Assembly (NCBI RefSeq): GCF_000174435.1
Contig: NZ_ACJN02000001.1
Coordinates: 733,658-797,657 of the forward strand
DNA from: Desulfonatronospira thiodismutans ASO3-1
GTDB lineage: Bacteria > Desulfobacterota > Desulfovibrionia > Desulfovibrionales > Desulfonatronovibrionaceae
Reading direction: 5' to 3'
Length of the DNA stretch: 64,000 bases
Below are positions 24,227-44,923 of this stretch, in pieces. Every line of letters starts with the position of its first letter. Within the stretch, counting starts at the first letter, position 1. The notes beneath the pieces were generated by a model. That model ran no database searches and was not told the DNA's origin. It saw nothing but the letters and a program-made list of their open reading frames with translations. Made by a program: the position numbers and the translations under genes.

Positions 24227-24403
24227 GTAGCCATTCAGGGGATCCTCGGTGGTGATTACTGGCACGAGGCCTGGGGACTGTCCCTCGCTAAGTACCGGCT
24301 GTGCTGGTACACAAAACTTCGCGTCTGTAATTTTTGTAATTGTGCGTAAAAGGTGTCGCGGGGACTGTCCCCTGGCCGGTTCCGGCATCCCCTGAATGGT
24401 TAC
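24227..24403. mobile_element. MITE-like element, family A, copy A3
   Basis: A 177-bp copy in inverted orientation relative to A1: GTAGCCATTCAGGGG at the left, CCCCTGAATGGTTAC at the right, with GGGGACTGTCC blocks and a GTGTCGCGGGGACTG junction. It lies directly behind the hipA remnant and directly before a short pstA fragment. Confidence 0.65.
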
Positions 24404-28196: not shown

Positions 28197-30629
28197 ATGG
28201 AAAAATTTACCAGTGTGGACATGCATGTTCACTCCAGGCATTCCACCAGGCCATCACAATGGGGCCTGCAAAAGCTTGGATGCTCCGAAAGCTATACCGG
28301 GCCTGAATTCATCTACAAAAGACTCAGGGACAAAGGCATGGACCTGGTGACCATCACCGACCACAACTGCATAGACGGTTGCCTGGAAATAGCACACAAA
28401 GACGGCGTGTTTGTCAGTGAGGAAATTACCGCTCATTTTCCAGACGACGGATGCAAGGTCCACGTCCTGGCTTATGATATCAGTGAAGAACAGCACAGCC
28501 GGATACAGGAAATCAGGTTCAACATCTTTGAACTGGTCAGCTATCTTCAAACCGAGGATATTCTACATGCAGCAGCTCATCCACTTTTTTCAGTCAACGG
28601 CAAGATGAGCTACGAAAACTTCGAAAGGCTGCTGCTTCTTTTCAAGATTATGGAGTGCAATGGGGCCAGGGATAAAACCCAGAACGAGGCTCTGGAGTTT
28701 ATTCTGGATAATCTCTGCCCGCTGGATTTCGAATACCTGCAGAACAAATACGATTTGAAAGCAGCGGGAAATAAACCCTGGGAAAAGAGCATAATCGGTG
28801 GATCCGACGATCACAGCTCTCTGAATATCGGCCGGATGTTTACCAGGGTACCCGGCAATCATAACCTGAAAAAATTCCTGGAGCAGGTAAATAAAGGGTG
28901 CTCTAATGCCTGGGGAACACCATCAACCCCTAAAACCATGGCCCACAACCTTTACTCAATTGGTTATCAGTTCTGTAAGCACAAATTCAATCTGCACCGC
29001 TATACCGGACAGGACAGCCTGTTACAGTTTCTTGACCAGACCCTGCATCCAGGACAGAAGATCCCAAAAAACATCAAGGACTCCATTCTTGGCTTTATCT
29101 ACAAAAAGACGGGATCAAAAGGCAAAACCCCGGCCAGAGAATTTCACAGGCTTCTCAGCCGGGAAACGGAACTGATGCTGCGTACAGATCCGGAAATCAC
29201 CAGAATGGTCCAATCATCGGTAAACCCTCATGAATATATGGGGTCCAGATGGTTCAGGTTTGCCAATAAGGCAGGCAACAGGTTGCTCTCTCATGAGGCG
29301 GGCAGGCTTGTGGAACAGGCAGCATCTGCCGGTTTTCTGGACATGTTTCAGACCCTGGGCTCGGCCGGCAGCCTTTACACCATGCTTTCCCCCTACTTTG
29401 TATCTTATGGAATATTCAACCAGGATCGCCGCACAAGCAAGGAATTCATTTCCAGCTTTAAAAAAAGAAAAGGGATCAGAAAATCTGCTTATCAAATGCG
29501 GGTGGCACATTTTACGGATACTTTCTACGAAATAAACGGAGTGGCCAGAACCATGCAGCAACTGGCCACCACAGCTGCGGTCACAAGCAAAGACCTGACC
29601 ATCATCACCTGCCGGCCTGATTCAAGCAAATCTCTGGAAATGGACGGGGTTCAAAATTTTGAGCCCATGGGCATGCTGGATCTGCCGGAATACCCGGAAA
29701 TCAAACTGTATTACCCGCCTGTCCTGGAAATGATAGACTACTGCTTCGAGCGGGACACCACCCACCTGCATACAGCCACGCCGGGACCCATGGGGCTGGC
29801 TGCCCTGGCCACAGCCACAATCCTGGGACTGCCCATATTCGGAACCTATCACACCTCTCTGCCCCAGTACACAGGGCATCTTACCGGGGATCACGCACTG
29901 GAAGCACTCATGTGGAAATATATAATCTGGTATTACAATCAGCTGGATAAGGTTTTCGCCCCGTCGAAAAGTACCGCTGACGAACTGCGCCTCAAAGGCG
30001 TCAGGAGCGAAAAAATCAAAGTCTACCCCAGGGGAGTGGACACGGACAAGTTCAACCCGGCCAAACGCAATGGATTTTTTGCCAGGCATTATAAGATCCA
30101 GAATAAGACAAAGCTGTTGTACGTAGGCCGCATCTCCAAAGAAAAGAACCTGCAGATACTGGAAAAGGCTTTTCAGAAAATCTGCGAACATACATCAAAA
30201 GTGCACCTGGTGATAGTGGGTGACGGACCCTACCGTTACGAGATGGAGTACAGGCTCAAAGACTATCCGGCAACTTTTACCGGATATCTTCAGGGAGAAG
30301 AACTGAGTCAGGCCTATGCATCATCCGACCTGTTCGTCTTCCCCAGCTCAACCGACACCTTCGGAAATGTAGTGCTGGAAGCACAGGCCTCGGGTGTTCC
30401 CGCCATAGTAGTAGATCAGGGCGGGCCGGGCGAAAACATCATCCAGGGCGATACAGGACTCGTTGTGCCTGCTGAAGACAGTCATGCCCTGAAAAGAGCC
30501 ATTCTTTCCCTTCTGGCCCATCCAGAGGATTTGAGAGAAATGGGACAAAAGGCCAGAAAATACATGGAAAGCAGATCCTTTAAAAAGGCCTTTGAACAGA
30601 CCTGGGAAATGTACCGGGAATGTGCGTAA
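28197..30629 (+). CDS. PHP-domain / glycosyltransferase family 4 fusion
   Basis: An 810-residue two-domain protein. The ATG at 28197 follows AAAAGGAGGG; a more upstream start has no such site. Residues 5-230 form a PHP metal-dependent phosphoesterase domain: VDMHVHSRHS (His10, His12), TDHNCIDG, then HAAAHPLF and GGSDDHSS. Residues about 230-430 are a helical linker. From about 433 (MRVAHFTDTFYEINGVARTM) there is a GT-B glycosyltransferase of the group 1 type, with the donor-site block FVFPSSTDTFGNVVLEAQASGVP. Such enzymes transfer sugars to lipids or small carriers. It is first in a run with the PhoU-kinase and GAK ATP-grasp genes (34 nt to the next gene). Substrate unknown. Confidence 0.9.
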   Translation: MEKFTSVDMHVHSRHSTRPSQWGLQKLGCSESYTGPEFIYKRLRDKGMDLVTITDHNCIDGCLEIAHKDGVFVSEEITAHFPDDGCKVHVLAYDISEEQHSRIQEIRFNIFELVSYLQTEDILHAAAHPLFSVNGKMSYENFERLLLLFKIMECNGARDKTQNEALEFILDNLCPLDFEYLQNKYDLKAAGNKPWEKSIIGGSDDHSSLNIGRMFTRVPGNHNLKKFLEQVNKGCSNAWGTPSTPKTMAHNLYSIGYQFCKHKFNLHRYTGQDSLLQFLDQTLHPGQKIPKNIKDSILGFIYKKTGSKGKTPAREFHRLLSRETELMLRTDPEITRMVQSSVNPHEYMGSRWFRFANKAGNRLLSHEAGRLVEQAASAGFLDMFQTLGSAGSLYTMLSPYFVSYGIFNQDRRTSKEFISSFKKRKGIRKSAYQMRVAHFTDTFYEINGVARTMQQLATTAAVTSKDLTIITCRPDSSKSLEMDGVQNFEPMGMLDLPEYPEIKLYYPPVLEMIDYCFERDTTHLHTATPGPMGLAALATATILGLPIFGTYHTSLPQYTGHLTGDHALEALMWKYIIWYYNQLDKVFAPSKSTADELRLKGVRSEKIKVYPRGVDTDKFNPAKRNGFFARHYKIQNKTKLLYVGRISKEKNLQILEKAFQKICEHTSKVHLVIVGDGPYRYEMEYRLKDYPATFTGYLQGEELSQAYASSDLFVFPSSTDTFGNVVLEAQASGVPAIVVDQGGPGENIIQGDTGLVVPAEDSHALKRAILSLLAHPEDLREMGQKARKYMESRSFKKAFEQTWEMYRECA

Positions 30630-30663
30630 CATCCTGAAAAAGCATGTAAGGAAGATGTGATGT

Positions 30664-32301
30664 ATGCATAACCTTCTCGACCTGAAAGAAAAAATTCATT
30701 TCATGACTTTGGAAGTAATCCGTCAACTGGAATCGGTAAAAAGAATCATCAGAAATCCTGACCCCCAGGTGGCAGACAGGGTCAAAAACAGGGACGACCT
30801 GATAGACAATTACAAAGCAGTCATTGAAAATATCTGCTTTTCAAGGATTCACGGCCATCATTACCTGACCCGGGAAGAGGCGGATTTTGTTAGAGCGGTA
30901 AACATCATAAGCAACAACCTGGAGAGAATAAGCGATTTTGCAGTGAATATACTGGGGCAGCTGAATCATCTCCACGACATGAAGACCATGCAGAGCTACA
31001 GGTACCGTCACTACTTCCAGCAAATTACAATCTCTCTGGAACTTGTGGTTCAAGGTCTGTTCAACCGTGACCATGAACTGGCCCTGCGCATATGCAAGTC
31101 TGAGTTCATTGTGGACAAGCTCTTCAAAAAGAGTTTCAGGCAGATCCTTGAAGACTTGCATTCCGCGGACAACAAAAGCGATCTCATTACCTGTCTATTT
31201 ATTTTCCGATATCTGGAAAGAATGGGTGACTCCATGCTCAACATCGGGGAAGCCATTATTTTTTCAGTATTCGGAGAAAAGCTGAAAATTCACCAGTATC
31301 ACGCCCTGATGGAAAATCTTGGTTCTATGGACAATGAGCTTTCATTTGAGGAAATCGGCTTTGAATCCATCTGGGAATCCAGGTCTGGATGCCGTATAGG
31401 CAAAATAATGGATTCTGGCCAGAGAAATGGACAGGCGGTATTATTTAAAGAGGGCAGAATTGAAAAAATTGCCAGGGAAAAAGCAAACATAGAAAAATGG
31501 AAAAGCATTTTTCCAAGTCTGGTGCCAAGAATAATCAGCTACAGTCAGAACAGTAAAAATGCTTCCATGCTCATGGATTTTCTGCAGGGTTGTTCTGTGC
31601 AGGACACCGTTCTTTCCAGGGACCGGGAAAGCATGGACAATGCCGCCTTTATACTTAAAGAGACTCTGTCCATTATCTGGCACGATACTCTGGAAAACAC
31701 CGCTGTGAAGCCTGACTTTATTTCCCAGATGATACAGCGCCTTGACGACGTAATCATGATTCATCCGGAATTCAATTTTTCTGATTTTGACAATTCACTA
31801 TCCCGACCCCTCCCTGAAAAACTTCTACAGATCCTTAGTAAAATAGAGACTGAACTTTCTTCTCCTTTTTCGGTATTTATTCATGGAGATTTCAACACCA
31901 ACAACATCCTTTATAACCAGAAAAACCAGCAGATCTACTTTATAGACCTGCACAGGTCGCGATATGGAGACTATGTTCAGGACATTTCGGTATTCCTTGT
32001 TTCCAACTACCGCATGCCCGTGTTTTATCCCGATGTACGCCGGGCCATAAACAAAATCAATAAAACGATCTTTTGTTTCGCCAATCAGTTTGCTGCTGAA
32101 AACAGTGACAAGACCTTCCATGCCCGGCTGGCTCTGGGCCTGATACGTTCTTTTTACACCTCAACCAGGTTTGAGTTGAACAGAGAACTTTCCAGAAGCA
32201 TGTACAACAGATCGCTGCAACTGGCACAACTGCTGCTTGCCCACCAGGGAAAACCATGGAGGGATTTTTCAGTACCCAGAAATATTTTTGATTACCCATA
32301 G
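30664..32301 (+). CDS. PhoU-domain / aminoglycoside phosphotransferase-like kinase fusion
   Basis: A 545-residue fusion. Residues 1-215 are two PhoU-type three-helix units; the metal-binding-like motifs RISDFAVNI and RMGDSMLNIGEA are visible. Residues about 250-530 form a kinase of the aminoglycoside/choline phosphotransferase fold: a lysine region GQAVLFKEGRIEKIAREKANIEKW, MLMDFLQG as hinge, the catalytic loop FIHGDFNTNNILY near residue 407, and FIDLHRSRYGDYVQDI in place of DFE-type metal binding. The pairing links a phosphate-signalling domain to a small-molecule or protein kinase. It stands between the PHP-glycosyltransferase and GAK ATP-grasp genes, 5 kb from the pst operon. The substrate is unknown. 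Confidence 0.88.
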   Translation: MHNLLDLKEKIHFMTLEVIRQLESVKRIIRNPDPQVADRVKNRDDLIDNYKAVIENICFSRIHGHHYLTREEADFVRAVNIISNNLERISDFAVNILGQLNHLHDMKTMQSYRYRHYFQQITISLELVVQGLFNRDHELALRICKSEFIVDKLFKKSFRQILEDLHSADNKSDLITCLFIFRYLERMGDSMLNIGEAIIFSVFGEKLKIHQYHALMENLGSMDNELSFEEIGFESIWESRSGCRIGKIMDSGQRNGQAVLFKEGRIEKIAREKANIEKWKSIFPSLVPRIISYSQNSKNASMLMDFLQGCSVQDTVLSRDRESMDNAAFILKETLSIIWHDTLENTAVKPDFISQMIQRLDDVIMIHPEFNFSDFDNSLSRPLPEKLLQILSKIETELSSPFSVFIHGDFNTNNILYNQKNQQIYFIDLHRSRYGDYVQDISVFLVSNYRMPVFYPDVRRAINKINKTIFCFANQFAAENSDKTFHARLALGLIRSFYTSTRFELNRELSRSMYNRSLQLAQLLLAHQGKPWRDFSVPRNIFDYP

Positions 32302-32376
32302 CCTGTAATTGTATAGATCCCCTGGCCGGCACTGTTACAAAAAACCAGCTATAAAAATCTTATGCATGGAGGCTCA

Positions 32377-33279
32377 ATGTCTATTGAAAAACAAAAGAAC
32401 TATAAAATAGCGGTCATCGGCAATCCGGGCAGCTGGTCCACTGAAAAGCTGGCAGACGAACTGTATGAAAGAACCAGCTTCAGACTTGTGGTGGATCCAG
32501 CACAGCTGGCCTTTGACATGCAGGGCAGGACACTTGTTGCCGGAAACACTGATCTGGCTGAGCTGGACGGTCTGGCCATAAAAAAGATCGGACCCGTTTA
32601 TTCTCCAGATATGTACAACCGCCTGGAGATACTTCGATTTTTTTGCTCCCTGGGCAAGCCTGTGTTTTCAAGACCGGAAATGGTCATGATGGCTGTAAAC
32701 AGGCTTAGCTGTACTGTAAATCTTCAGATAGGAAACATCCCCATGCCCCCCACAGTCATCACCGAAAGCCGTGATGAAGCAGTCAGGGCAGTGCGTAAAT
32801 TCGGCAAAGCTGTATTCAAGCCGCTTTTTTCTTCCAAGGCCAGGGGAATGCTTTTAGTAGAGGACAATGCAAATTGTGGCTCAGCAATTGCCAATTTTCA
32901 AGCCTCGGGAAATACTGCCATGTATATTCAGAAGATGGTTCAGATTCCGGGCAGAGACCTGGGAATAAGTTTTTTGGGAGGCAAATATATCGGCACTTAT
33001 GCCCGGCGCAAGGGAAATTCATGGAACACCTGCACCTCCAACGGAGGAAAGTACGAGCCATGCGAGCCGGACGCGGAAACCATAAATCTGGCAAGTAAGG
33101 CACAAGACCTGTTCAACCTTGATTTTACCTGCGTGGATGTTGTGGAGACAGAAGATGGCCCCATGGTCTTCGAGGTATCAGCCTTTGGAGGTTTCAGGGG
33201 ACTTTATCATGCCTGCGGCCTGAATGCGGCCGGCATGTATGCGGAATATATTATTAACCAGCTGGAATCCCGGCAATAA
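32377..33279 (+). CDS. GAK-system ATP-grasp enzyme
   Basis: A 300-residue ATP-grasp protein related to RimK and glutathione-synthetase-like ligases, matching the family named the GAK-system ATP-grasp enzyme. The ATG at 32377 follows GGAGG by 4 nt; an upstream in-frame ATG at 32362 lacks such a site. Nucleotide-binding blocks are AVFKPLFSSKARGMLLVED and MYIQKMVQIPGRDLGISFLGG; metal ligands are in FTCVDVVETEDGPMVFEVSAFGGFRG. These enzymes join a carboxylate to an amine or thiol through an acyl phosphate. The partners named for the system (HprK-related kinase B and amphi-Trp protein) are encoded next to it. The reaction is unknown. Confidence 0.9.
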   Translation: MSIEKQKNYKIAVIGNPGSWSTEKLADELYERTSFRLVVDPAQLAFDMQGRTLVAGNTDLAELDGLAIKKIGPVYSPDMYNRLEILRFFCSLGKPVFSRPEMVMMAVNRLSCTVNLQIGNIPMPPTVITESRDEAVRAVRKFGKAVFKPLFSSKARGMLLVEDNANCGSAIANFQASGNTAMYIQKMVQIPGRDLGISFLGGKYIGTYARRKGNSWNTCTSNGGKYEPCEPDAETINLASKAQDLFNLDFTCVDVVETEDGPMVFEVSAFGGFRGLYHACGLNAAGMYAEYIINQLESRQ

Positions 33280-33286
33280 TGCCGAT

Positions 33287-33465
33287 GTAAGCATTCAGGG
33301 GGTCCTCGGTGGTGACTCATGGCATTAGTCCAGGGGACTGTCCCCGCTGAGTAATGACTATGCAGCTTCACTTAATTTCGCGCCTGTACTTTTTTGTTTT
33401 GGTGAAGGAAAAGTGTCGCGGGGACTGTCCCATTGGCCGGTACCTGCCCCCCCCTGAATGATTAC
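33287..33465. mobile_element. MITE-like element, family A, copy A4
   Basis: Left end GTAAGCATTCAGGGGG, right end CCCCCTGAATGATTAC, with GGGGACTGTCCCC blocks inside. It lies between the GAK ATP-grasp and amphi-Trp genes, starting 8 nt after the ATP-grasp stop, so it splits what is otherwise one gene run. Confidence 0.7.
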
Positions 33466-33519
33466 GATAAAGTGGCAACACAGGACTATAATATTCATAG
33501 CAAACCAAGGGAGGAATGT

Positions 33520-33879
33520 ATGGGAAAAGATGAACTTAAATTCAAGGCAGTGGTGGAAAAACAAAGCCTGATAGCCACTCTGGAAAATCTGATGGACTCA
33601 ATTCAAGTAGGAAGGCTATATGTAGGAGATGGGCAGCAGGGAATACTGCTTGTTCCCGCACCCCACTTAAAGCTTGAAATCAGGGCTGAATCCAAAAAGG
33701 ACAAGGAAAAAATATGCATGGAGATCAGCTGGAGAACCGATAGCAAAGAGTTTGCGTTTAAGGAGCCGGAGCTGGTTATATCCAGCCAGGCTCCTGAAAT
33801 AACATATGAAAGTGAAGCAGGGGATGCAGACCAGGAATACCAGGAGAGCAATGAACAAACTGAAGAAGAACTGCGATAA
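33520..33879 (+). CDS. Amphi-Trp domain protein (GAK-system associated)
   Basis: A 119-residue protein. Residues 5-75 match the amphi-Trp domain: ELKFKAVVEKQSLIATLENL, a GRLYVGDG turn, then LEIRAESKKDKEKICMEISWR with the characteristic Trp71. The C-terminal 45 residues are acidic and look disordered. The ATG at 33520 is preceded by GGGAGG. The domain is known mainly from its association with the GAK system, where its role is unknown. Element A4 separates it from the ATP-grasp gene. The next features are repeats and a GGDEF fragment, then the convergent HprK-related kinase B gene. Confidence 0.85.
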   Translation: MGKDELKFKAVVEKQSLIATLENLMDSIQVGRLYVGDGQQGILLVPAPHLKLEIRAESKKDKEKICMEISWRTDSKEFAFKEPELVISSQAPEITYESEAGDADQEYQESNEQTEEELR

Positions 33880-33907
33880 AAATCACTCTTCTGCATGATT
33901 AACCCAA

Positions 33908-34053
33908 CAACGACACTTAGAAAATAGGTTGATTGTCAAATCAGGGATAGGCACTCCGGCGCCCACTTGAATGAGATTTTGTGCCACCCAGGCCTGATTT
34001 TTAGCTCCAAGTGCGTGCCGGAAGTCCCCTTGAGGCACAAATAAGTGTCGTTG
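33908..34053. repeat. Family F-like palindromic element with 12-bp ends
   Basis: Bounded by CAACGACACTTA (33908-33919) and TAAGTGTCGTTG (34042-34053). The interior (AGGCACTCCGG, CCCACTTGA, TTTTGTGC) matches the interior of the element at 63003-63159, although the ends differ. Its right end joins the surviving GGDEF coding sequence. Confidence 0.6.
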
Positions 34054-34373
34054 TAGGGGGAGGTGGTGATGATTTTATCATTATTACTGAAACCCAAAAG
34101 GCCCAGCGGATCTGCCAGTCGATAGTGCGCTGTTTCGCAAGACTGGCAAAAAAATTTTACACGGTGGATGACAATAAAAGGGGTTATATTCTGGCCAAAA
34201 ACCGGGATGGGGTGAAAAAGAAGTTTGCCCTTGTTTCTGTTTCCCTGGCCATAGTGGACTGCTTTGAAAACATGACCCTGAACCAGATCAGCCAGCTGGC
34301 CGCCGGAACCAAAAAACTGGCCAAATCGAAGCCTGGCAATTCATTTGCACAAAACAGAAGAACCCAGACATAG
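34047..34373 (+). pseudogene. C-terminal fragment of a GGDEF-domain gene
   Basis: The frame encodes VVVGGGGDDFIIITETQKAQ, then KKFYTVDDNKRGYILAKNRD and KKKFALVSVSLAIVDC, ending SQLAAGTKKLAKSKPGNSF. This is the second half of a GGDEF domain as found in desulfovibrional diguanylate cyclases (GGDEF loop, YT.ED..RGYI..KDR.G, SVSIA, and the closing helix). The first half of the domain and everything upstream are missing; the coding sequence starts exactly at the end of the repeat at 33908-34053. The loop reads GGDDF instead of GGDEF. It cannot encode an active cyclase. Confidence 0.75.
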
Positions 34374-34382
34374 GCACATTAT

Positions 34383-35468
34383 TTATATAAGTTCAGCACA
34401 TCTGTCCGAGGCCTGTTGGAAGTCTATGCCTCCGCCAAGTTCATAAACCGGAATATCCTGAAAAAATTTCATGTAGTCCAGAGGGTCAGGCTCCAGCACC
34501 CTGAAGTTGTCTGATGGATAGTAAAAAAGACCAGGAGATTTGATCACTGCCTGCAACAGCTCTGACCTTTTTTCCAGGTTCACCCTCTGCATTTCCAGGC
34601 TCTGTCCGTGCCTGCTCCAGTTTAAAATGACAAGCGCCTTTACTCCTGATTGCAGCTTGAACCTGTCCCGACCGAAACACTTATCCAGCCAGACGTCATA
34701 TTTATGCTCCATTTTCCAGATCATGTCTTTTGAAATTCCGGAAAATTTCCTGATTTCTTCAGATGTCAGAATCCCGGTCAGACGCGGATTGTTCAGTATT
34801 GTACCCGGATTGACCCTGGGCAGCTTGGCCACTCCGAACATTTCTACATGTTCCTTTTTTTTGCGGACCATGAGGCGGTCATTGCTGACAAAATCAAGGC
34901 CTTTATTCATGAGGTGAAGGGCCAGAGTAGATTTACCCAGACCGGAAAAACCCGCCAGAATAATCCCCTGCCCTTTTCTTGAAACTGCTGCTGCGTGGCA
35001 CAGTAGACAGCCCTGGTCCAGCTTCCACTGGATGAAGCGGTTATTGATAAAGTTGACAATCTGGTTGTCATTTTCTGTACACGGTCCGATGGCGATATTT
35101 TCACTGGAGTTCATAAAAAACAGCATCCCGGAGAGTTTTTTGCGAACCACCCTGCCCCCGGGAATATTTATGTACTGCTCCTTTATACGCTTTTTGCTGC
35201 AACCGGGGTGCAGGTCAGTCAGGCTGATACCAGGTTTAAGCGGGGGGTTTTCCAGAGCTTTAATCACAATATGGGGCTGGTCATCATTCTGGATTAAAAA
35301 AGGCTTAAAGTATCTCAAAAGCTTTTCCCGCAAAACAGGTTCATCCATCTCCACCCTGATGGTACAGTCATCCAGCTGAAGATCAACGGACTGATCCAGT
35401 GTATCCTGAACATTTGAACAGCCCAGCATATGCAGGAAACTTTGCCCGGGGGTAATTGGATAATGCAT
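34383..35468 (-). CDS. HprK-related kinase B (GAK system)
   Basis: A 361-residue P-loop kinase related to HPr serine kinase/phosphorylase. The ATG at 35468 follows AAAGAGG by 8 nt; a further upstream ATG lacks a good site. Walker A GFSGLGKST is at residues 173-181, preceded by LLCHAAAVSRKGQGIILA. FVSNDRLMVRKKK follows, as in HprK, where the aspartate acts near the phosphate. The N-terminal 150 residues form a separate domain not found in HprK. No HPr-like partner is in the window. It is convergent with the amphi-Trp gene. Its protein target is unknown; the GAK label comes from family nomenclature and its neighbours here fit. Confidence 0.9.
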   Translation of the reverse strand: MHYPITPGQSFLHMLGCSNVQDTLDQSVDLQLDDCTIRVEMDEPVLREKLLRYFKPFLIQNDDQPHIVIKALENPPLKPGISLTDLHPGCSKKRIKEQYINIPGGRVVRKKLSGMLFFMNSSENIAIGPCTENDNQIVNFINNRFIQWKLDQGCLLCHAAAVSRKGQGIILAGFSGLGKSTLALHLMNKGLDFVSNDRLMVRKKKEHVEMFGVAKLPRVNPGTILNNPRLTGILTSEEIRKFSGISKDMIWKMEHKYDVWLDKCFGRDRFKLQSGVKALVILNWSRHGQSLEMQRVNLEKRSELLQAVIKSPGLFYYPSDNFRVLEPDPLDYMKFFQDIPVYELGGGIDFQQASDRCAELI

Positions 35469-35524: not shown

Positions 35525-35630
35525 TTTTAAGGAAAGCAGGGGACAGGCACCCCCAAACCTTCTCCGGGCTGTATGCCTCCGGGCAGGAAGCCATGCCACA
35601 TGCAAACGGCTAAACTGTTACACTTTACTG
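35525..35630. repeat. Degenerate family F repeat
   Basis: TTAAGGAAAGCAGGGGACAGGCACC, a CTCCGGGC...GCCTCCGGGC block, GCCATGCCACATGCAAACGG and CTAAACTGTTACA follow the order of parts in the complete element at 63003-63159. It separates the HprK-related kinase from pstA. Confidence 0.55.
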
Positions 35631-35728: not shown

Positions 35729-36586
35729 CTACAGCCTTCTCTGCAGCTTGTTCCGCACCAGTATTGCGACTAAGTTCAGTCCCAGAACCAGAAACATGAG
35801 TGTTAGTGCAGTGCCGTACTGCAGAGGTCTGGTCTGGTCTATGTTGACACCGGCTGTGGCCAGGACATAGATGTGATAAGGCATGGCCATGATTTCATCA
35901 AAAATCGAACTTGGGATCTTGCCGGTATAAAAGACAGCCGCGGTAAACATGATGGGAGCGGTTTCACCTGCGGCCCGGCTTACACCCAGGATCATGCCGG
36001 TAAGCATGCTTGGCAGCGCAGCAGGCAGGACCATCCTGTAAACGGTCTGCCATTTGGTGGCCCCGAGAGCCAGAGAGGCTTCGCGGTAGGACTGAGGAAC
36101 GTTTCGCAGGGCTTCCTCAGCTGATCCGATAATCAGCGGCAGAATAAAGGCCCCCAGGGTAAGAGAGCCAGCCAGTAGACTGACCCCCATGTTCAGATAG
36201 AGAACAAAAAAGGCCAGCCCGAAAAGACCGTAGACAACCGAGGGCACTCCGGCCAGGTTGATTATGCCCATGCGTATGATTCTGGTCCATCTGCCGCCGC
36301 CGGAAAACTCATTAAGATAAATGGCAGTGCCCACACCCAGGGGAAAAGCCACCAGAATGGAACCCAGGCTTATATAGACAGTACCCACGATACAGGGCCA
36401 GATTCCCCCCTCGGTCATGGACTTTCTGGGGTGTTCGGTCAAAAACTCCCAGCTTATGGCACTGATCCCGTTAATGGCGATAAATCCCAGAAATAGGGCC
36501 AGGGCCAGTACGTTCAGGTAAATTGCGGCCCTGAAGATGGAAAAAGCGATGAACTGATTACGCTTGCGTGCAAAATTGGATCTCAT
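35729..36586 (-). CDS. pstA: Phosphate ABC transporter permease PstA
   Basis: A 285-residue inner-membrane protein with about six TM segments. Family blocks: WEFLTEHPRKSMTEGGIWPCIVGTVY, GVGTAIYLNEF, the coupling region EEALRNVPQSYREASLALGATKWQTVYRMVLPAALP and GETAPIMFTAAVF. It pairs with PstC to pass phosphate from PstS into the cytoplasm, powered by PstB. It is the third gene of pstSCA, 35 nt after pstC. Parts of its 3' end recur as fragments at 24404 and 26718. Confidence 0.95.
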   Translation of the reverse strand: MRSNFARKRNQFIAFSIFRAAIYLNVLALALFLGFIAINGISAISWEFLTEHPRKSMTEGGIWPCIVGTVYISLGSILVAFPLGVGTAIYLNEFSGGGRWTRIIRMGIINLAGVPSVVYGLFGLAFFVLYLNMGVSLLAGSLTLGAFILPLIIGSAEEALRNVPQSYREASLALGATKWQTVYRMVLPAALPSMLTGMILGVSRAAGETAPIMFTAAVFYTGKIPSSIFDEIMAMPYHIYVLATAGVNIDQTRPLQYGTALTLMFLVLGLNLVAILVRNKLQRRL

Positions 36587-36621
36587 TTTGGAATCTCTGC
36601 TGGATGGTTTATCAATTGCTT

Positions 36622-37527
36622 TTAAAGTGTGGCCGCACCTACCTGCTTATGTCTTTCCGACAGGTAGCTGGCCAGCAGATTGAAAAGAAAGGTGAAAACA
36701 AAAAGAACCAGGCCGATGGCAAAAAGGGCATGGTAGTGATCACTGCGGAATGGAACATTGCCCATTTCAGCAGCGATGTTTGCCGGCATGGGCCGCACCG
36801 GATCGAATATGGATTCCGGAATCATGGCCGCACCGCCGGCCACCATGAGCACCACCATGGTCTCCCCTATGGCTCTGGCTATTCCCAGGACTACGGCTGT
36901 GGATATTCCGGCCAGAGAAGCAGGCACTATTACTCTGGCAATGGTTTCCCATTGCGTGGCCCCCAGGGCCATGGAGCCTTCCTTCATATGTCTGGGTACG
37001 CTGTAGATGGCATCCTCGGATATGCTGGTAATGGTGGGCACAGCCATGAAAGCCAGCATAATGGAAGCGTTCAGTACATTCAGTCCCGTACCCAGATCGA
37101 ACATCTCCTGCAGAAAAGGGGCGACAACAACCATACCGAAAAAACCGATGACTACGGTGGGCAGGCCCTCAATGAGCTCCACAATGGGCTTGATCACCGC
37201 CCTTGTCTTTGGATGCGCAATTTCGGCCAGGTAAATGGCGCTGAAAACTCCCAGGGGAATGGCCATGATCGAGGCCAGGGCCACTACACTGGCAGAACCG
37301 GCTATCAGCGGCAGAATTCCGTAGTCCGGGTTGATATCAGTTGGATACCATTCTTTGCCCAGGATAAAATCTCTGACTGAAATAACATCGAATATGGGAA
37401 GGCCTTCTAAGATCAGAAAAAGAAAAATCAGGGTCAGGATTATTATCCCGCTGGCCCCTACAATTAGAAAGACCCCGTGTACCAGGAGATCCTTTTTTTG
37501 GCTTGAAATAACTGCCATATGATTCAC
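36622..37527 (-). CDS. pstC: Phosphate ABC transporter permease PstC
   Basis: A 301-residue membrane permease. Typical blocks are FLFLILEGLPIFD, GVFSAIYLAEIAHPKTR, IKPIVELIEGLPTVVIGFFGMVV and the coupling region MKEGSMALGATQWETIARVIVPASLAG, then AIGETMVVLMVAGGAA. The start is either the GTG at 37527 or the ATG at 37518 (MAVISSQKKD); no strong ribosome-binding site separates them. It lies between pstS and pstA in one transcription unit reading left. Confidence 0.94.
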   Translation of the reverse strand: MNHMAVISSQKKDLLVHGVFLIVGASGIIILTLIFLFLILEGLPIFDVISVRDFILGKEWYPTDINPDYGILPLIAGSASVVALASIMAIPLGVFSAIYLAEIAHPKTRAVIKPIVELIEGLPTVVIGFFGMVVVAPFLQEMFDLGTGLNVLNASIMLAFMAVPTITSISEDAIYSVPRHMKEGSMALGATQWETIARVIVPASLAGISTAVVLGIARAIGETMVVLMVAGGAAMIPESIFDPVRPMPANIAAEMGNVPFRSDHYHALFAIGLVLFVFTFLFNLLASYLSERHKQVGAATL

Positions 37528-37641
37528 TTATGCTGGTGTTTTTTATAGTTATGATGAAAAATATTTATACCATTATGGAAATATTGAGGGAGCAGAGCAA
37601 ACAGGCCTCTACCCCCTCAGTATTTTTTTGCCGCAGAACCG

Positions 37642-38457
37642 TTACCAGATGGGTACGTACCCGCCTTCTTCAATAAGCTCAGCGTTATCCGGATGCTGAA
37701 TGTAGTTGATGAACCTGAGCACATCCCCGGAAGGCCAGTTGTTGGTAATCAGCCACAGGCTCCTGGAAACAGGATATTCACCTGATGCAGTGGTTGTGGA
37801 TGTGGGCATTACGCCGTCAACCTTCACACTCTTGAGCCTGTCGGTAAGATAGCCCAGGCCGATATACCCTATGGCATGCCGGTTATCCTGCACTGTCTGG
37901 ACAATGGCTCCGTTGGAGGCCAGCATTTGGGCCCTGGGAGTCAGGCGATCGCCCTTGAGTACCTCATCACTCCAGACAACGTAGGTACCTGAATCGGAGT
38001 CTCTGGAAATTATGGTGATGTCCCGGTCCGTTCCACCAACCTCTGACCAGTTGGTAATATCGCCGTTATAGATTTTCCTGAGCTCTTCCAGGCTCAGTTC
38101 ATCTACGGGATTATCCGGATGCACCACAGGAATAATGCTGTCGTAGGCAATGACAAAGGGCACCGGATAAATTCCGTTTTCAACGGCCCGTTCTACTTCG
38201 CTGTCTCTTATCCACCTTGAAGTCTGGGCGATGTCAGTGGTGCCGTCGATCAAGGCCGCGATACCGTTGCCGGAACCTCCACCGGAAATGGAAAAATTGA
38301 AACCGGGATTGTCTTCCATGAAGGCCTCCGACACCACCTGTGAAACAGGCAAAACCGTGGTTGAACCGTTGATCTTAATCTCACCGGCCTTTACCGGAGC
38401 TGCCAACAGGCACAACCCAAAAACCAAAGAACCTAATAAAACCAAAACTCTGTTCAT
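37642..38457 (-). CDS. pstS: Periplasmic phosphate-binding protein PstS
   Basis: A 271-residue exported protein. The ATG at 38457 is chosen because TGGAGG lies 6 nt upstream and because it gives a proper signal peptide (MNRVLVLLGSLVFGLCLLAA, cleavage after VKA at residue 24). Phosphate-binding blocks are INGSTTVLPVSQVVSEAF, SGGGSGNGIAALIDGTTDIAQ and ISRDSDSGTYVVW. It captures phosphate for PstCA. First gene of pstSCA and divergent from pstB; the shared 0.3 kb region contains candidate Pho boxes. The ATPase gene pstB is thus not in the same operon. Confidence 0.94.
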   Translation of the reverse strand: MNRVLVLLGSLVFGLCLLAAPVKAGEIKINGSTTVLPVSQVVSEAFMEDNPGFNFSISGGGSGNGIAALIDGTTDIAQTSRWIRDSEVERAVENGIYPVPFVIAYDSIIPVVHPDNPVDELSLEELRKIYNGDITNWSEVGGTDRDITIISRDSDSGTYVVWSDEVLKGDRLTPRAQMLASNGAIVQTVQDNRHAIGYIGLGYLTDRLKSVKVDGVMPTSTTTASGEYPVSRSLWLITNNWPSGDVLRFINYIQHPDNAELIEEGGYVPIW

Positions 38458-38765
38458 TTTAAACCTCCATAAAATTGTTGAAATTAAGACTGGATGACTG
38501 TCCAGCCCTGACTTGAGAAGTGTTTTAAGCATCTTTGGATTGTTTTGCATGCCGAACATGTGGTGATATTGTTACAATTGTGAAACAGTTAAAACAATTG
38601 TTTGCTGGCCAGCGAAAGAACATCTGCGAAAGGCTGTATTGTTCGAAAAGTAACCTCTTCGTAAAACTTTTGTAACAAACGAGGGATAAGTAATTCTCTG
38701 TTCATCAATACGAGTGTCCCTTAAGCAGGGACTACATCCAACATATCATTAAAAGAGGTTTTTTC
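38458..38765. promoter_or_regulatory. Divergent pstS / pstB control region with candidate Pho boxes
   Basis: Two places show spaced direct repeats of the type PhoB binds: TTCGTAAAACTTTTGTAAC (about 38658-38676, half-sites 11 bp apart) and TTGTTACAATTGTGAAACAG (about 38569-38588). The PhoB/PhoR genes lie 5 kb away. The assignment is by resemblance only and the exact boxes are uncertain. Confidence 0.4.
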
Positions 38766-39611
38766 ATGAATTCTGAACAGATTCTGCCCAGCAATCCCTT
38801 ATCCGGAGGCGTGGTCCAGGATATGGATCCCAATAAAAAAATCAGTCTGGACCAGGAGCACTGCTGTCTGGAGGTCAAGGACCTCAATCTTTTTTACGGC
38901 TCGACCCAGGCCCTGAAGTCCATTAACATGGAAATACCTGTAAAACGGGCTACAGCCTTTATCGGTCCCAGCGGTTGCGGCAAATCAACCCTGTTGCGCT
39001 GTTTCAACCGGCTTAACGATATGATAGATATATGCAGAGTACAGGGGGAGATAAAACTGGACGGAGAAAATATATATGATCCTAAAGTTGATGTGGCCGA
39101 ACTCAGGCGCAAAGTGGGCATGGTCTTTCAGAAACCCAATCCTTTTCCCAAATCCATCTTCGACAATATCGCCTTTGGCTTGCGCCTCAAGGGCATAAGG
39201 AACAAAAAGCATTTAAGTGAAGTGGTGGAAAAATCCCTGAAAGGGGCGGCCCTTTGGGATGAGGTCAAGGACAGGCTGCATGAAAGCGCCCTGGGATTAT
39301 CAGGCGGGCAACAGCAGAGGCTGGTCATTGCCAGGGCCATAGCCATTGAACCCAATGTGATTCTGCTGGACGAACCCTGTTCTGCTCTGGACCCCATTTC
39401 CACATCCAAGATAGAAGAGCTGATTTATTATCTAAAAGAAAGCTATACCATTGTAATCGTCACCCACAACATGCAGCAGGCAGCCAGAGTTTCAGACTTT
39501 ACTGCATATATGTACCTAGGAGAACTTATTGAGTACAGGGATACCATCACCATGTTCACCAATCCCAGAGAAAAAACAACCGAAGAATATATAACCGGCA
39601 GATTCGGATAA
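38766..39611 (+). CDS. pstB: Phosphate ABC transporter ATPase PstB
   Basis: A 281-residue ATPase that powers PstCA. Walker [10 protein letters not shown] is at residues 67-75, then the PstB-specific [12 protein letters not shown] and [21 protein letters not shown], signature [15 protein letters not shown], Walker [14 protein letters not shown] and [20 protein letters not shown]. The N-terminal 30 residues extend beyond the usual PstB start. The gene is transcribed away from pstSCA and is followed 24 nt later by phoU. Confidence 0.96.
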
Positions 39612-39635
39612 TTTCATCTTATCAGGAGACAGAAT

Positions 39636-40304
39636 ATGACACATTTGACACAGGAACTGGACAGGCTGAATATGAAGGTCATGCAGATGGTGGTCCAGAC
39701 GGAGCAGGCACTGAGCAAGACCGTGAACGCTTTCTCCCGCATGGATGCGGATCTGGCCCAGGAAGTGGTGGATCATGACAAGCAGATCAATGAACTGGAA
39801 GTGCTCATTGACCAGCTTTGCCTGCGCCTCCTGGCCCTGGAGCAGCCCGTGGCCAGGGACCTGCGCTTTATCCTGGGGGCCATGCGCCTGAGCAAGGATC
39901 TGGAACGTATAGGGGACGAATCTGCCAACATATCCGATGCAACAATATTTTTAAGCCTGCATCCTCCCCTGGATTTTTACGACCAGATCCAGATCATGGG
40001 CCAGAAAGCCTATGACATGCTCCAGGAAGCCATAATCGCCTTTTCCTCTCCGGATACAGAAAGGGCCATAAATGTCTGCCGCATGGATTTCGAGGTGGAT
40101 GAAATAAACTCAAAAGTCCTCAAGCTAAGCATCGAACATATGAGTCAAAACAGCCAGGCGGTTGAGCAGTGCGTACAGAGCATAAATATCGCCAGGCGCT
40201 TTGAACGGGTGGCGGACCTGGCCACCAACATAGCCGAAACCACCATGTTCATCGTTCAGGGCACCAGCATCAAGCATTCCTGCCTGTTTGACGACCGGGT
40301 TTAG
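39636..40304 (+). CDS. phoU: Phosphate signalling protein PhoU
   Basis: A 222-residue all-helical protein made of two PhoU units; the metal-cluster motifs ERIGDESANI (about 91-100) and ERVADLATNI (about 192-201) are intact. PhoU links Pst transport to PhoR, keeping the Pho response off when phosphate is plentiful. Co-transcribed with pstB. Compare the PhoU-like half of the kinase fusion at 30664, which is far more diverged. Confidence 0.95.
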   Translation: MTHLTQELDRLNMKVMQMVVQTEQALSKTVNAFSRMDADLAQEVVDHDKQINELEVLIDQLCLRLLALEQPVARDLRFILGAMRLSKDLERIGDESANISDATIFLSLHPPLDFYDQIQIMGQKAYDMLQEAIIAFSSPDTERAINVCRMDFEVDEINSKVLKLSIEHMSQNSQAVEQCVQSINIARRFERVADLATNIAETTMFIVQGTSIKHSCLFDDRV

Positions 40305-40317
40305 TCAAAGCTACTAG

Positions 40318-40352
40318 TCCCCTGCTTTCCTTAAAAGCGCTGACAGATACGT
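40318..40352. repeat. Half of a family F repeat
   Basis: CCCCTGCTTTCCTTAAAAGCGCTGACAGATAC matches one arm of the element at 63003-63159; a second solo arm is at 49735-49766. Confidence 0.5.
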
Positions 40353-40387
40353 TGGATGAAAGCTGACTATGTGAGCAGATCATTGGC

Positions 40388-40414
40388 TTGACAGGTATAT
40401 TGTTAAAATATACA
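40388..40414 (+). promoter_or_regulatory. Candidate promoter and operator of the brnTA-type module
   Basis: TTGACA at 40388-40393 overlaps the start of a perfect 7-bp palindrome GTATATT (40395-40401) / AATATAC (40407-40413) that ends in a TATACA -10-like element. The spacing is 15 nt, shorter than ideal. The palindrome is a plausible site for autorepression by the BrnA antitoxin. Confidence 0.4.
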
Positions 40415-40422
40415 GATTAATT

Positions 40423-40725
40423 ATGTATTACATGCTTGAAAAGGTAACAGGTTTTGACTGGGATGAAGGAAATTTTGACAAAAATCTCATCAAGCATGAT
40501 GTTCAGAACTGGGAATGTGAGCAGGTTTTCTTTAATAAGCCTCTGATTATCCTTGATGACCACAGGCACTCACTGGTTGAAAAGCGACTGGCGGCTTTTG
40601 GAAAAACAGATGGCGGACGTCTCTTAACAATGATATTCACAATAAGGAAAAGCCTGATCAGGGTGATCTCAGCCAGGGACATGAATAAAAAGGAGAGGAT
40701 ATACTATCATGAAAAAGCACAATAG
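40423..40725 (+). CDS. brnT: BrnT family toxin (ribonuclease)
   Basis: A 100-residue toxin (97 if started at the ATG at 40432). The BrnT pattern is clear: FDWDEGNFDKNLIKHDVQNWECEQVFFN, DDHRHSLVEKRLAAFGKTDGGRLLTMIFTIR and VISARDMNKKERIYY. BrnT adopts a RelE-like fold and inhibits translation by cleaving RNA. It overlaps the antitoxin gene by 17 nt, the canonical brnT-brnA order. No strong ribosome-binding site precedes either start codon. The module lies between phoU and the phoR 3' duplication. Confidence 0.9.
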   Translation: MYYMLEKVTGFDWDEGNFDKNLIKHDVQNWECEQVFFNKPLIILDDHRHSLVEKRLAAFGKTDGGRLLTMIFTIRKSLIRVISARDMNKKERIYYHEKAQ

Positions 40726-41026
40726 AATTCCACACTTTGAAAACGAAGACCAGGAAAGGGAATTCTGGGCTCATGAATCGCCTCTTGACTACTTTGATCC
40801 CAACGAGTTTAAAAAAATTTCCTTCCCTGACCTTAAGCCCTCCCTTAAGTCCATATCCTTAAGGCTTCCCGAGGCAATGATTGCTGAACTCAAGCTCCTG
40901 GCCAACAAAAAAGACATGCCCTACCAGAGCCTGGTGAAAATATTTCTGGCCAGGCAGATAAACGTGGAGCGCGGTTCACTCGCAAAAGATTTAGAGAATA
41001 CCACAGATTATTTTGAAGGAGGCTGA
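40709..41026 (+). CDS. brnA: BrnA/CopG family antitoxin
   Basis: A 105-residue antitoxin. The N-terminal half (HFENEDQEREFWAHESPLDYFD) is the toxin-binding extension common in this family; the C-terminal half has a ribbon-helix-helix DNA-binding domain (KSISLRLPEAMIAELKLLANKK, YQSLVKIFLARQI). It should neutralise the BrnT toxin and repress the shared promoter. The ribosome-binding site (AAAGGAGAGG) lies within the toxin gene. Confidence 0.9.
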   Translation: MKKHNRIPHFENEDQEREFWAHESPLDYFDPNEFKKISFPDLKPSLKSISLRLPEAMIAELKLLANKKDMPYQSLVKIFLARQINVERGSLAKDLENTTDYFEGG

Positions 41027-41033
41027 TGCCTTT

Positions 41034-41172
41034 CCTAAGAGCGATTCAATGAAAACCAGACAATGCATCCATTGTCACTGCCCGGTACCGGGCTTTCCAC
41101 CCAGATGCGGCCTCCGAACGTCTTGATAATGTTTTTGCAGATGGCCAGCCCAAGTCCGGTACCTTTGACCTT
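41034..41172 (-). pseudogene. Duplicated 3' end of phoR
   Basis: 139 bp identical to 42140-42278 except at two positions, in the same orientation. It encodes the last 45 residues of PhoR (KGTGLGLAICKNIIK to FSLNRS) and its stop codon. Upstream of the match the sequence departs into repeats. It is a non-functional fragment separated from the real phoR by 967 bp. Confidence 0.9.
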
Positions 41173-41820
41173 ACCCGGCTTCTTTTCAGGATAAAGAGGG
41201 GAGTCTGCACCGCGGTTCAGATTTACTGAAGGGGCGGACTTCTGGAATGTATATAAGGAAGGGATTTCATACAACCACCCCCGGCCCCTCCTTGGCTAAG
41301 GAGGGGAGCTACACCGTGGCCTGGATTTACTTGGGGGGTGAAAGCTTAATTAAGCTCCAGTCGGAGTATTTATACAGATGCATGCGACAGAGTGTTGCCA
41401 CGCCTCGATCTGCTCCCCTCCTTGGCTAAGGAGGGGTTGGGGGTGGTTCGATATTTAACTCCCTTCCTTACCAGGCTTCTTTACAGGCTAAGGAGGGGAG
41501 CTACACCGTGGCCTGGATTTACTTGGGGGGTGGAAGCTTAGGCAACTCCCGGAAAATAGAATTATAAACCTCGGTGGGTGGCGACCTTTTAATTTTCTGC
41601 ATGTTGCCCAGAACTCCCCACCCTAAAACTGTTACGTTATTTTCAGAAAGTTGCCTTAGTCAAATCCACCGTCTGTTGCCTGCCTGAAGCCGCTTGTTCA
41701 CTATTCATGTCAGGCGGCATTGATTCTTTTTTCTATCGGGATTATAGTATTTTGTATGGATAACGAATGGATAAAACTGGATGTCCCAAAATTTATCACC
41801 TCTTATGAAAGAGGTTCCCA
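41173..41820. repeat. Cluster of family B repeats before the orphan antitoxin gene
   Basis: Family B hairpins (CCCCTCCTTGGCTAAGGAGGGG with a GGGGGTGGTT tail) lie at 41271-41308 (inverted), 41412-41448 and, degenerate, at about 41478-41500. A 40-bp block, GGGAGCTACACCGTGGCCTGG plus TTACTTGGGGGGTG, follows two of the copies (about 41306 and 41496). From about 41560 to 41820 nothing but the antitoxin promoter is expected. Confidence 0.6.
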
Positions 41821-42081
41821 ATGAATATTTGCCATTTTTGTGGAAACAGCAATTTTAAAGACACCGTCTGTGAGTATACCTACAAACGCGATGGCAGGAT
41901 GTTGTTCGTGGAAAATGTGCCTTGCCGCAAATGCGGGTTTTGCGGTGAAACATATTTTCTGTCTGAAAATCTGAGAAAAATCGAAGCAGAGTTCGAAGCC
42001 ATTCATTATCACGGCAAAAAGGCCACTGGTGAAATCGTAGTTCCGACTCAACATTTTGCAGATATCACCTCTGTTACTTAA
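41821..42081 (+). CDS. MqsA/YgiT-type zinc-finger antitoxin, orphan
   Basis: An 86-residue protein with two CXXC zinc-binding pairs: ICHFCGNSNF near the start and CRKCGFCGETYF at about 36-47, followed by the SENLRKIEAEFEAIHY segment. This is the N-terminal zinc domain of MqsA-type antitoxins, usually encoded beside a DUF4258 or MqsR toxin. No toxin gene is seen on either side, and the C-terminal HTH domain of full MqsA is absent. GAAAGAGG precedes the ATG. It lies inside the segment bounded by the duplicated phoR ends. Confidence 0.82.
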   Translation: MNICHFCGNSNFKDTVCEYTYKRDGRMLFVENVPCRKCGFCGETYFLSENLRKIEAEFEAIHYHGKKATGEIVVPTQHFADITSVT

Positions 42082-42140
42082 AGATGGTAATCGTAACTTG
42101 CCAGGCGATTTGTTGCCTGATAACTTTATTGCAGTCATAC

Positions 42141-43919: not shown

Positions 43920-43952
43920 GCTTTTTTCAGAGCCCGCAATGTTGTTTTATGC

Positions 43953-44651
43953 TTACTGCAGTTTTTCTGTACTGAATTTATATCCCAGCCCCCTGGCGGT
44001 CTGAATCAAATCTGAGTAGGGTTCAAGCTTGGCCCGCAGTCTGCGTACGTGGGTATCAACCGTACGGGCGTACCCCTCAAACTCGTAGCCCCAGACATTG
44101 TTTAAAAGACGTTCCCTGGTGAGCACCCTGCCCTCGTTTTGAACCATTTCCTGGAGCAGCTTCATCTCCGTAGCGGTGAGGCTTACATTAATACCGTCCA
44201 CCTTGAACTCCATAGCCTCAAAGTCAAACTCCAGGCCTTTATGTTTCCAGATCCTTTCCACACCGGAATCAGACCTGTACTCCCGGCGCAGCACCGCCTT
44301 GATGCGCAGAAGAAGCTCACGGATGCTGAACGGCTTGACCACGTAATCGTCAGCGCCCAGCTCAAAACCCACCACCCGGTCCATCTCTTCGCTCTTGGCC
44401 GTGACCATGATGACTATGATGTCCTTGAGTTTGTCATCCTTTTTCAGGCGGCGACAGACCTCCAGGCCGTCCATGTGCGGCAGCATCAGGTCCAGGATGA
44501 TCAGTTCAGGCTGCTCTTCTCTGGCGATTTTAAGCCCGTCATAGCCGTTGTCTGTGAGAAACACCCTGTACCCTGCTGCTTCCAGATTTATGTGCAGCAG
44601 GTTCTGGATATCCTCTTCATCCTCTATGACCAGGATCTTGCTTTTTTTCAT
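43953..44651 (-). CDS. phoB: Phosphate regulon response regulator PhoB (OmpR family)
   Basis: A 232-residue regulator. The ATG at 44651 is preceded by AAGG and gives the canonical start MKKSKILVIEDEEDI; upstream in-frame sequence is non-conserved. Phospho-accepting Asp54 (IILDLMLPHMDG), Lys106 (DDYVVKPFS), then a winged-helix domain with LTATEMKLLQEM, GRVLTRERLLNNVWG and RTVDTHVRRLRAKL. It likely controls the pst genes through Pho boxes. Located upstream of phoR in a two-gene operon. Confidence 0.93.
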   Translation of the reverse strand: MKKSKILVIEDEEDIQNLLHINLEAAGYRVFLTDNGYDGLKIAREEQPELIILDLMLPHMDGLEVCRRLKKDDKLKDIIVIMVTAKSEEMDRVVGFELGADDYVVKPFSIRELLLRIKAVLRREYRSDSGVERIWKHKGLEFDFEAMEFKVDGINVSLTATEMKLLQEMVQNEGRVLTRERLLNNVWGYEFEGYARTVDTHVRRLRAKLEPYSDLIQTARGLGYKFSTEKLQ

Positions 44652-44755
44652 GCTGCTTACCTTTTTTGCAATGGTTTTAAAGGCTGTTAATTCAACCTTG
44701 ATGCCATAATATGAAGTCTGCGTTACAGTTTGATGACAACCGGCCAAAAATGTTG

Positions 44756-44923
44756 GTAAGCATTCTGGGGGTGCCGGAATCACGCCTCTAGCGTGACCAG
44801 GGGACAGTCCCGCACTTATTTTTTTCTGATAAACATTCAGATGTGAGCTTTATAAAAATAAGTGCGGGACTGTCCCCAGGCCTGGTGCCAGGGACTAAAA
44901 CTGAGTACCCCCTGAATGCTTAC
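44756..44923. mobile_element. MITE-like element, family A, copy A5, carrying the GCACTTATTTTT hairpin
   Basis: Outer ends GTAAGCATTC(T)GGGGG and CCCCCTGAATGCTTAC. The central region has GGGGACAGTCCCGCACTTATTTTT and AAAAATAAGTGCGGGACTGTCCCC, a perfect 24-bp inverted repeat. This copy shows that the family A core and the GCACTTA-type hairpin (also in rnpB) belong to one modular system. It lies directly upstream of phoB. Confidence 0.75.

Follow-up and report, generated by a model that had tools for sequence, protein, structure and literature searches.

The GAK system is known by the names of five NCBIfam families (TIGR04354-TIGR04358), and literature searches on amphi-Trp, on the family accessions and on combinations of the partners turned up no relevant GAK paper in the library used. 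In Desulfonatronospira thiodismutans ASO3-1 all five families score above their curated cut-offs across two loci, one of which lies in the 64,000-nt stretch of DNA analyzed here (the window). The NCBIfam set holds no GAK model of its own for two core partners, a PhoU domain fused to an APH-fold kinase (PhoU-APH) and a protein with a PHP fold (the PHP-fold protein). This PhoU-kinase and PHP-fold core is new, as are the fold of the XXXCH protein, a PHP-glycosyltransferase (PHP-GT) as accessory, and a linkage to pst. Compared with the usual GAK arrangement, the system of this organism occupies two loci about 50 kb apart, with PhoU-APH and the ATP-grasp gene duplicated.

Several described systems resemble GAK in part. 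The HprK-related kinase B (HprK-B) is kin to HPr kinase/phosphorylase, the similarity being weak (E about 1e-3 in PDB), and the CofD-like member is kin to YvcK/GlmR, YvcK-type UPF0052 proteins being its sole solved relatives. GlmR binds UDP-GlcNAc (PMC7525490) and has been reported as a uridyltransferase (PMC10128056). Unlike the HprK/YvcK carbon control of B. subtilis and others, GAK has PhoU-APH, ATP-grasp and amphi-Trp partners in addition, and we noticed no gene for an HPr- or Crh-like substrate in the GAK loci examined. The PhoU domain is held in common with the Pst-PhoU regulon, which adjoins GAK in the window, in loci L040, L061, L065, L072 and L077, and in others; however, the GAK PhoU is fused to a kinase, and most GAK loci are not beside pst. 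The GAK ATP-grasp ligase is of the same fold family as the RimK/LysX amino-acid ligases, the nearest solved structures to its profile, yet it forms its own family (TIGR04356) in which Asp253 and Glu265 are kept and Ser267, within EVS, stands where RimK-type enzymes carry Asn. XXXCH has the four-helix fold and the C-terminal CH of cytochrome c' (class II cytochrome c), whereas it has lost the first Cys, is cytosolic by inspection, often carries an N-terminal amphi-Trp domain and lies in no electron-transfer context. Finally, the PHP-fold protein has the fold and metal-site residue pattern of the PHP phosphoesterases RNase AM, Cv1693 and BAD_1165, but it is without a sequence-family match and a helical segment interrupts its PHP core.

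The window locus and the conserved GAK core

Gene calls in the window were taken from Pfam and NCBIfam scans, and start codons (28197, 32377, 33520 and 35468) were chosen by ribosome-binding sites read in the sequence:

28197-30629, plus strand: PHP-GT, consisting of a PHP domain, a middle region and GT4 (GT4 Pfam E down to 3e-38)
30664-32301, plus strand: PhoU-APH (PF01895 E 6e-24; APH/EcKL E 2e-9 to 2e-11)
32377-33279, plus strand: GAK ATP-grasp ligase, RimK/LysX-like (TIGR04356 465 bits, cut-off 300; open reading frame or alternative start 32362)
33520-33879, plus strand: amphi-Trp protein with an acidic tail (TIGR04354 57 bits, cut-off 31; PF20068 27.1 bits)
34383-35468, minus strand: HprK-B (TIGR04355 453 bits, cut-off 200; open reading frame or alternative start 35495)
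35729-44783: neighbours of the phosphate regulon, with pstA, pstC and pstS on the minus strand, pstB and phoU on the plus strand, phoR and phoB on the minus strand

The ATG at 32377 is the likelier ATP-grasp start, being preceded by GGAGG at 32368-32372; the amphi-Trp start is preceded by GGAGG at 33510, and the ATG at 35468 is a likelier start for HprK-B than 35495. Two claims of the initial annotation about this region have stood: the five genes it named between 28197 and 35468, directly beside pst/pho, were all recovered by the family scans and by motifs, and the system is of GAK type, with ATP-grasp, HprK-B and amphi-Trp above cut-offs and CofD-like and XXXCH members in the same genome.

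The loci used for comparison were found by scanning genome contigs with the ATP-grasp alignment (80 named loci of at least 500 matches, in about 85,000 species genomes), and profiles built from the two loci of this genome were then applied to a set of 102 loci in which a few are represented twice. Since the loci are anchored on ATP-grasp, systems lacking it are under-counted, and many loci are contigs of metagenome-assembled genomes (MAGs) with short flanks. The named loci come from Desulfobacterota, Nitrospinota, Nitrospirota, Planctomycetota, Zixibacteria, Myxococcota, Alpha- and Gammaproteobacteria, and others. PhoU-APH lies beside ATP-grasp in 96 of the 102; the six loci without it are split loci of Desulfovibrionaceae (L035, L036 and L075, where L035 and L075 are the same contig) or are cut at contig ends (L041, L091 and L098). 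HprK-B was found in 85 loci, the PHP-fold protein in 68, CofD in 67 and XXXCH in 38, and the usual order on one strand is XXXCH, PHP-fold protein, amphi-Trp, PhoU-APH, ATP-grasp, HprK-B, CofD, amphi-Trp.

The same association appears among 297 genomes of the phylum, where ATP-grasp (over cut-off) occurs in 20, HprK-B in 20, PhoU-APH in 22, the PHP-fold protein in 21 and CofD in 26. Every one of the 20 genomes with a full ATP-grasp match has PhoU-APH, which occurs in only two others; HprK-B is present in 19 of these 20, and the sole genome outside them that has it (G078) carries a partial ATP-grasp gene beside it. The co-occurrence overlaps reach p = 2e-16 to 4e-29 in statistics that ignore relatedness. 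The initial annotation had made conserved synteny the decisive check on its grouping, and the PhoU-kinase bears this out fully, the PHP-GT in part (about eight loci, in several phyla). By conserved gene context, PhoU-APH and the unnamed PHP-fold phosphoesterase are core GAK members that are added here for the first time, and we regard the gene content of the core as established with near certainty.

The N-terminal half of PhoU-APH matches PF01895 in two stretches, that is, two helical repeats, and its profile matches solved PhoU structures (E 2e-20), while the profile of the C-terminal half matches solved APH structures; the catalytic HGDxNxxN and Asp are invariant across 99 aligned rows. In HprK-B the GxxGxGKST P-loop and His167 are invariant or nearly so and Asn205-Asp206 is conserved. 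As conserved motifs are kept in the kinases, the ligase and the CofD member, and the metal-site pattern in the PHP-fold protein, the GAK set looks active rather than vestigial.

The PHP-fold protein (about 390 residues) has no Pfam or NCBIfam match, and its family gave zero matches by sequence against the PDB. Two lines of evidence nevertheless mark it as a predicted PHP-type metallophosphoesterase. First, HxH, QHN, ExD, HPEQFW and GDDxH are invariant or nearly so in an alignment of 44 sequences, the metal-ligand residues being H67/H69, H99, E113, H130, H278 and D334/H336. Secondly, its AlphaFold2 model (pLDDT 91) superimposes on BAD_1165 (VIA Z 15.9; rmsd 3.8, 247 residues), RNase AM (15.4) and Cv1693 (14.9), with the interrupting helical segment at about 136-250. 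Loci of alpha- and gammaproteobacteria and of Planctomycetes mostly yielded no copy of this gene; in its place, most of them have a calcineurin-like phosphoesterase and a histidine phosphatase, and some also a SixA-Nudix fusion.

Against the PDB, the XXXCH profile matches cytochrome c' (E 0.0017), its CH falling on the heme-binding CH, and the top 42 Foldseek rows for the four-helix part of the XXXCH model are all cytochrome c' (VIA-align Z 12.4). A helical bundle with Z near 13 is weak by itself, and it is the sequence match together with the unanimous top rows that makes a convincing case, from profile and model, for a degenerate cytochrome c' fold recruited as a cytosolic partner. Many XXXCH copies start with an amphi-Trp domain, which the fold-search rows did not cover.

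The PHP half of the PHP-GT likewise had zero Pfam model matches and none in a PDB search, and its DMHVHS, ITDHN, AHP and GGSDDHS motifs are largely invariant in 6 homologues. Both this domain and the GAK PHP-fold protein carry PHP motifs; between the two there is no demonstrable sequence relation (hhalign probability 0.7%). The PHP-GT stands beside GAK genes in full in L056, L063, L071, L073 and L089 and in part in L032/L085 and L099, usually divergent; these few linkages, about 8 of 102 loci, span Desulfomicrobium, Desulfobacteraceae, Nitrospirae and Spirochaetia, and with so wide a taxonomic spread the PHP-GT is, judged from gene neighbourhoods, a recurrent accessory of GAK loci. That the set synthesizes or tags a phosphorylated glycan or small molecule, as the initial annotation suggested, stays a conjecture. 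The core phosphoesterase elsewhere is the different, unfused PHP-fold protein, and most GAK loci lack the PHP-GT, the one gene here that relates to glycans.

Two loci in one genome and the linkage of GAK to phosphate genes

The CofD-like and XXXCH members are absent from the window in the NCBIfam scan, as first noted, and both are present in a second locus (L022) of the same contig:

C1:815408-815677: XXXCH (TIGR04358 about 119 bits, cut-off 40)
C1:820217-821320: CofD-like (TIGR04357 about 580 bits, cut-off 340)

A family search found the second GAK ATP-grasp gene there, 53 kb downstream and outside the window. The order of this locus is XXXCH, PHP-fold protein, amphi-Trp, PhoU-APH, ATP-grasp, CofD-like, amphi-Trp, and its amphi-Trp proteins score 67 and 65 bits; the genome holds four amphi-Trp genes, the fourth (G000:C3:922327-922533) being distant from both GAK loci. 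HprK-B is absent from the second locus, and the copy in the window is the only one in the whole genome. Consequently, the system is split and partly duplicated, with PhoU-APH and ATP-grasp in both loci. Of the two possibilities first raised, incomplete or split, only the latter holds; an incomplete system was rejected because the remaining members lie about 50 kb away. Having all partners in one neighbourhood is a usual, not an invariable, GAK feature, and it is not found in this genome. A similar split in G213 and G277, where ATP-grasp, HprK-B and CofD lie together and the PHP-fold protein, PhoU-APH and a second HprK-B elsewhere, means that this does not exclude GAK membership.

In trees, the ATP-grasp and PhoU-APH proteins of the window are nested in the Desulfonatronospira clade (SH-aLRT 98-99), and HprK-B branches beside Desulfonatronaceae (95/94) on a long branch. 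Because of these positions, within or near the organism's own lineage, lateral import of the window locus is unsupported, and it likelier arose by duplication within the genus. The related MAG T1Sed10_59 carries both loci.

HprK-B lies downstream of pstSCA and is co-directional with it, at a gap of 234 bp from pstA; a weak terminator-like palindrome (35537-35555) lies between the two. Among the 78 loci outside the window's own species, six have pst/phoU in their flanks (L061, L062, L063, L065, L072 and L077), against about 0.36 expected from the estimated density of pst. This corresponds to a P of about 2e-6, or roughly 5e-4 by estimate if three Desulfobacteraceae-like loci are counted once. 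The pst/phoU genes are also found beside the GAK loci of G089 (L040) and G130 (L037), phoR/phoB lie near L113 and a PiT-type transporter near L096. In L061, 65 bp separate phoU from the start of the GAK operon, and in L065 the frames overlap phoU, as if operon and phoU could share one transcript. The tie to phosphate status that the initial annotation suspected is partly upheld: there is a linkage above chance, confined to a minority of loci, which supports a functional tie between GAK and phosphate in some lineages, not a universal one. As GAK genes adjoin or follow phosphate-uptake genes in several unrelated bacteria, their job is probably tied to phosphate control.

Two further observations concern this neighbourhood. 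A BrnT-type toxin and CopG-type antitoxin pair (40423-41026, by Pfam) directly follows phoU. About 13 kb from the GAK locus, genes for a CYTH-domain protein and a DHH/DHHA2 protein lie close together (48768-50867, by Pfam); the latter is a probable Mn-dependent pyrophosphatase, and both are phosphate-compound enzymes.

What the GAK proteins might do

The simplest reading of two kinases, a ligase, a YvcK/GlmR-like protein and matched phosphoesterases around small non-enzymatic proteins is a module for reversible modification. The explanation we favor, although we would put it at somewhat under even odds, is a cytoplasmic, phosphate-linked modification or signalling module acting on small amphi-Trp/XXXCH proteins. 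The individual steps, read from domains and gene context, are a shade more tentative. PhoU-APH, with PhoU as a metal- or Pst-linked sensory part, HprK-B and ATP-grasp would attach phosphate or amino-acid groups to a small partner, the likeliest being the amphi-Trp/XXXCH proteins. The phosphate would be taken off again by dedicated phosphoesterases, in most lineages the PHP-fold protein and, in alpha- and gammaproteobacteria and Planctomycetes, the calcineurin-like and histidine phosphatase pair (with SixA-Nudix in some). The YvcK-like CofD would couple the module to sugar-nucleotide or carbon status, in the way that GlmR does. Here HprK-B would come from the window locus, and CofD, XXXCH and the PHP-fold protein would come from the second. 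HPr kinase/phosphorylase responds to ATP, PPi and Pi, and the kinship of HprK-B with it fits a phosphate-linked role. Through the PhoU-kinase/PHP-fold core, the cytochrome c' partner and the pst-phoU linkage, an anonymous list of GAK genes is turned into testable statements: GAK expression or activity should respond to phosphate limitation, and modification is to be sought first on the amphi-Trp/XXXCH proteins.

This reading should be taken with some caution, since several results weigh against it. Fewer than one locus in ten shows the pst linkage, and of the six that do, three probably belong to a single lineage. A search near the GAK genes for a Pho box of the E. coli consensus found none; none was found near pst either, so the consensus may not apply. 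HprK-B was not found in 8 of 9 close-kin MAGs that keep all the remaining members, and either it is not always needed or these MAGs, which are incomplete, lack it for that reason. CofD-like genes occur without GAK ATP-grasp or HprK-B in G076, G109, G138, G165, G190, G235 and G256 (genus g3, same order), and GAK CofD may have a separate role of its own. The PHP-fold protein occurs without ATP-grasp or HprK-B in G218, G219, G241 and G262 (f83, G218), accompanied by PhoU-APH in G219 and G241, possibly as a reduced or ancestral form of GAK. Moreover, the substrates of the enzymes are all predicted from domains, and the fixed C-terminus of XXXCH may be structural.

That C-terminus also bears on the strongest rival, which refines the reading of the initial annotation: GAK would make a small molecule that is phosphorylated or amino-acylated, possibly with XXXCH as its carrier and in analogy to LysW-dependent lysine synthesis. 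In the LysW pathway, a small protein has its C-terminus charged by the ATP-grasp enzyme LysX, and a kinase then works on the product while it is still bound. The best solved relatives of the GAK ATP-grasp profile are LysX and RimK, XXXCH proteins end at a common place (CHxxYK/D in all but a few sequences), and the PHP-GT and YvcK-like CofD suggest sugar nucleotides. However, the final residue of XXXCH is K, D or A rather than the LysW-type Glu; no transporter or modular synthase recurs beside the core, nor does any extra biosynthetic gene do so consistently; neither XXXCH nor the PHP-GT is found in most loci; and paired kinases and phosphatases suit regulation better. We consider biosynthesis possible, although on the unlikely side.

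An improbable alternative, framed by analogy with the PPIP5K/DIPP enzymes of inositol pyrophosphates, is a soluble phosphate second messenger that ATP-grasp and the kinases would make and Nudix, histidine and metallo-phosphatases would destroy. Alphaproteobacterial and planctomycete loci do pair ATP-grasp with genes for histidine phosphatase, SixA-Nudix and metallophosphatase, the pst linkage exceeds chance, and PPIP5K likewise combines kinase and phosphatase domains (PMC11836120). A CHAD-domain gene lies near planctomycete GAK operons (L092:6533-7621; L108 near 3839), and CHAD domains bind polyphosphate (PMC6537752); but CHAD occurs in these two related loci only, and by sequence ATP-grasp is nearest to amino-acid ligases.

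We know of no receptor for such a messenger. In its widest form, GAK could be an unrecognised bacterial phosphate-homeostasis module, in which a messenger or protein tag would be made by PhoU-kinase, ATP-grasp and HprK-B, erased by phosphatases, and read by amphi-Trp and cytochrome c'-like proteins. This is speculative and we give it little credence; if true, the module would be a bacterial counterpart of eukaryotic inositol-pyrophosphate phosphate sensing.

Equally doubtful is redox or gas sensing, in which XXXCH would bind heme b through its His, with the conserved helix-A Met, and gate the kinases on NO, CO or redox state. The cytochrome c' fold of XXXCH, described above, speaks for it. The His is invariant and the Met near-invariant in 23 XXXCH proteins. 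On the other hand, the first Cys of CXXCH is absent in the alignment and the heme-attachment motif is broken, no signal peptide is apparent by inspection, and XXXCH was not found in most loci. The second XXXCH-family protein of this genome (G000:C2:486795-487061; L123:4990-5271; 93 aa) has no CH motif and neither Cys nor His; its gene lies between a stomatin-like gene and parA/parB. A chance grouping of unrelated genes can be dismissed as next to impossible for PhoU-APH, ATP-grasp and HprK-B, given the association in 96 of the 102 loci and in all 20 genomes described above.

Other features of the window

A further RimK-type ATP-grasp gene (56522-57313) is not of GAK type (39.6 bits to TIGR04356). 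Between the amphi-Trp and HprK-B genes, a short open reading frame (34011-34373) has a weak match to Cas10/Cmr2 palm2 (E 4e-4) and a GGDDF motif, and looks like the remnant of a GGDEF-type protein. The ATP-grasp and amphi-Trp genes are separated by an intergenic repeat of about 105 bp with GGGGACTGTCCC ends (33325-33440), of which the window has further copies at 3947-4059, 5064-5178 and 24265-24380; it also occurs in the second locus, between CofD and amphi-Trp (L022, about 6378-6462). The GGGGACTGTCCC sequence has 21 sites in the window against 0.5 expected, and the repeat looks like a MITE- or REP-like mobile or repeat element, outside the GAK mechanism.

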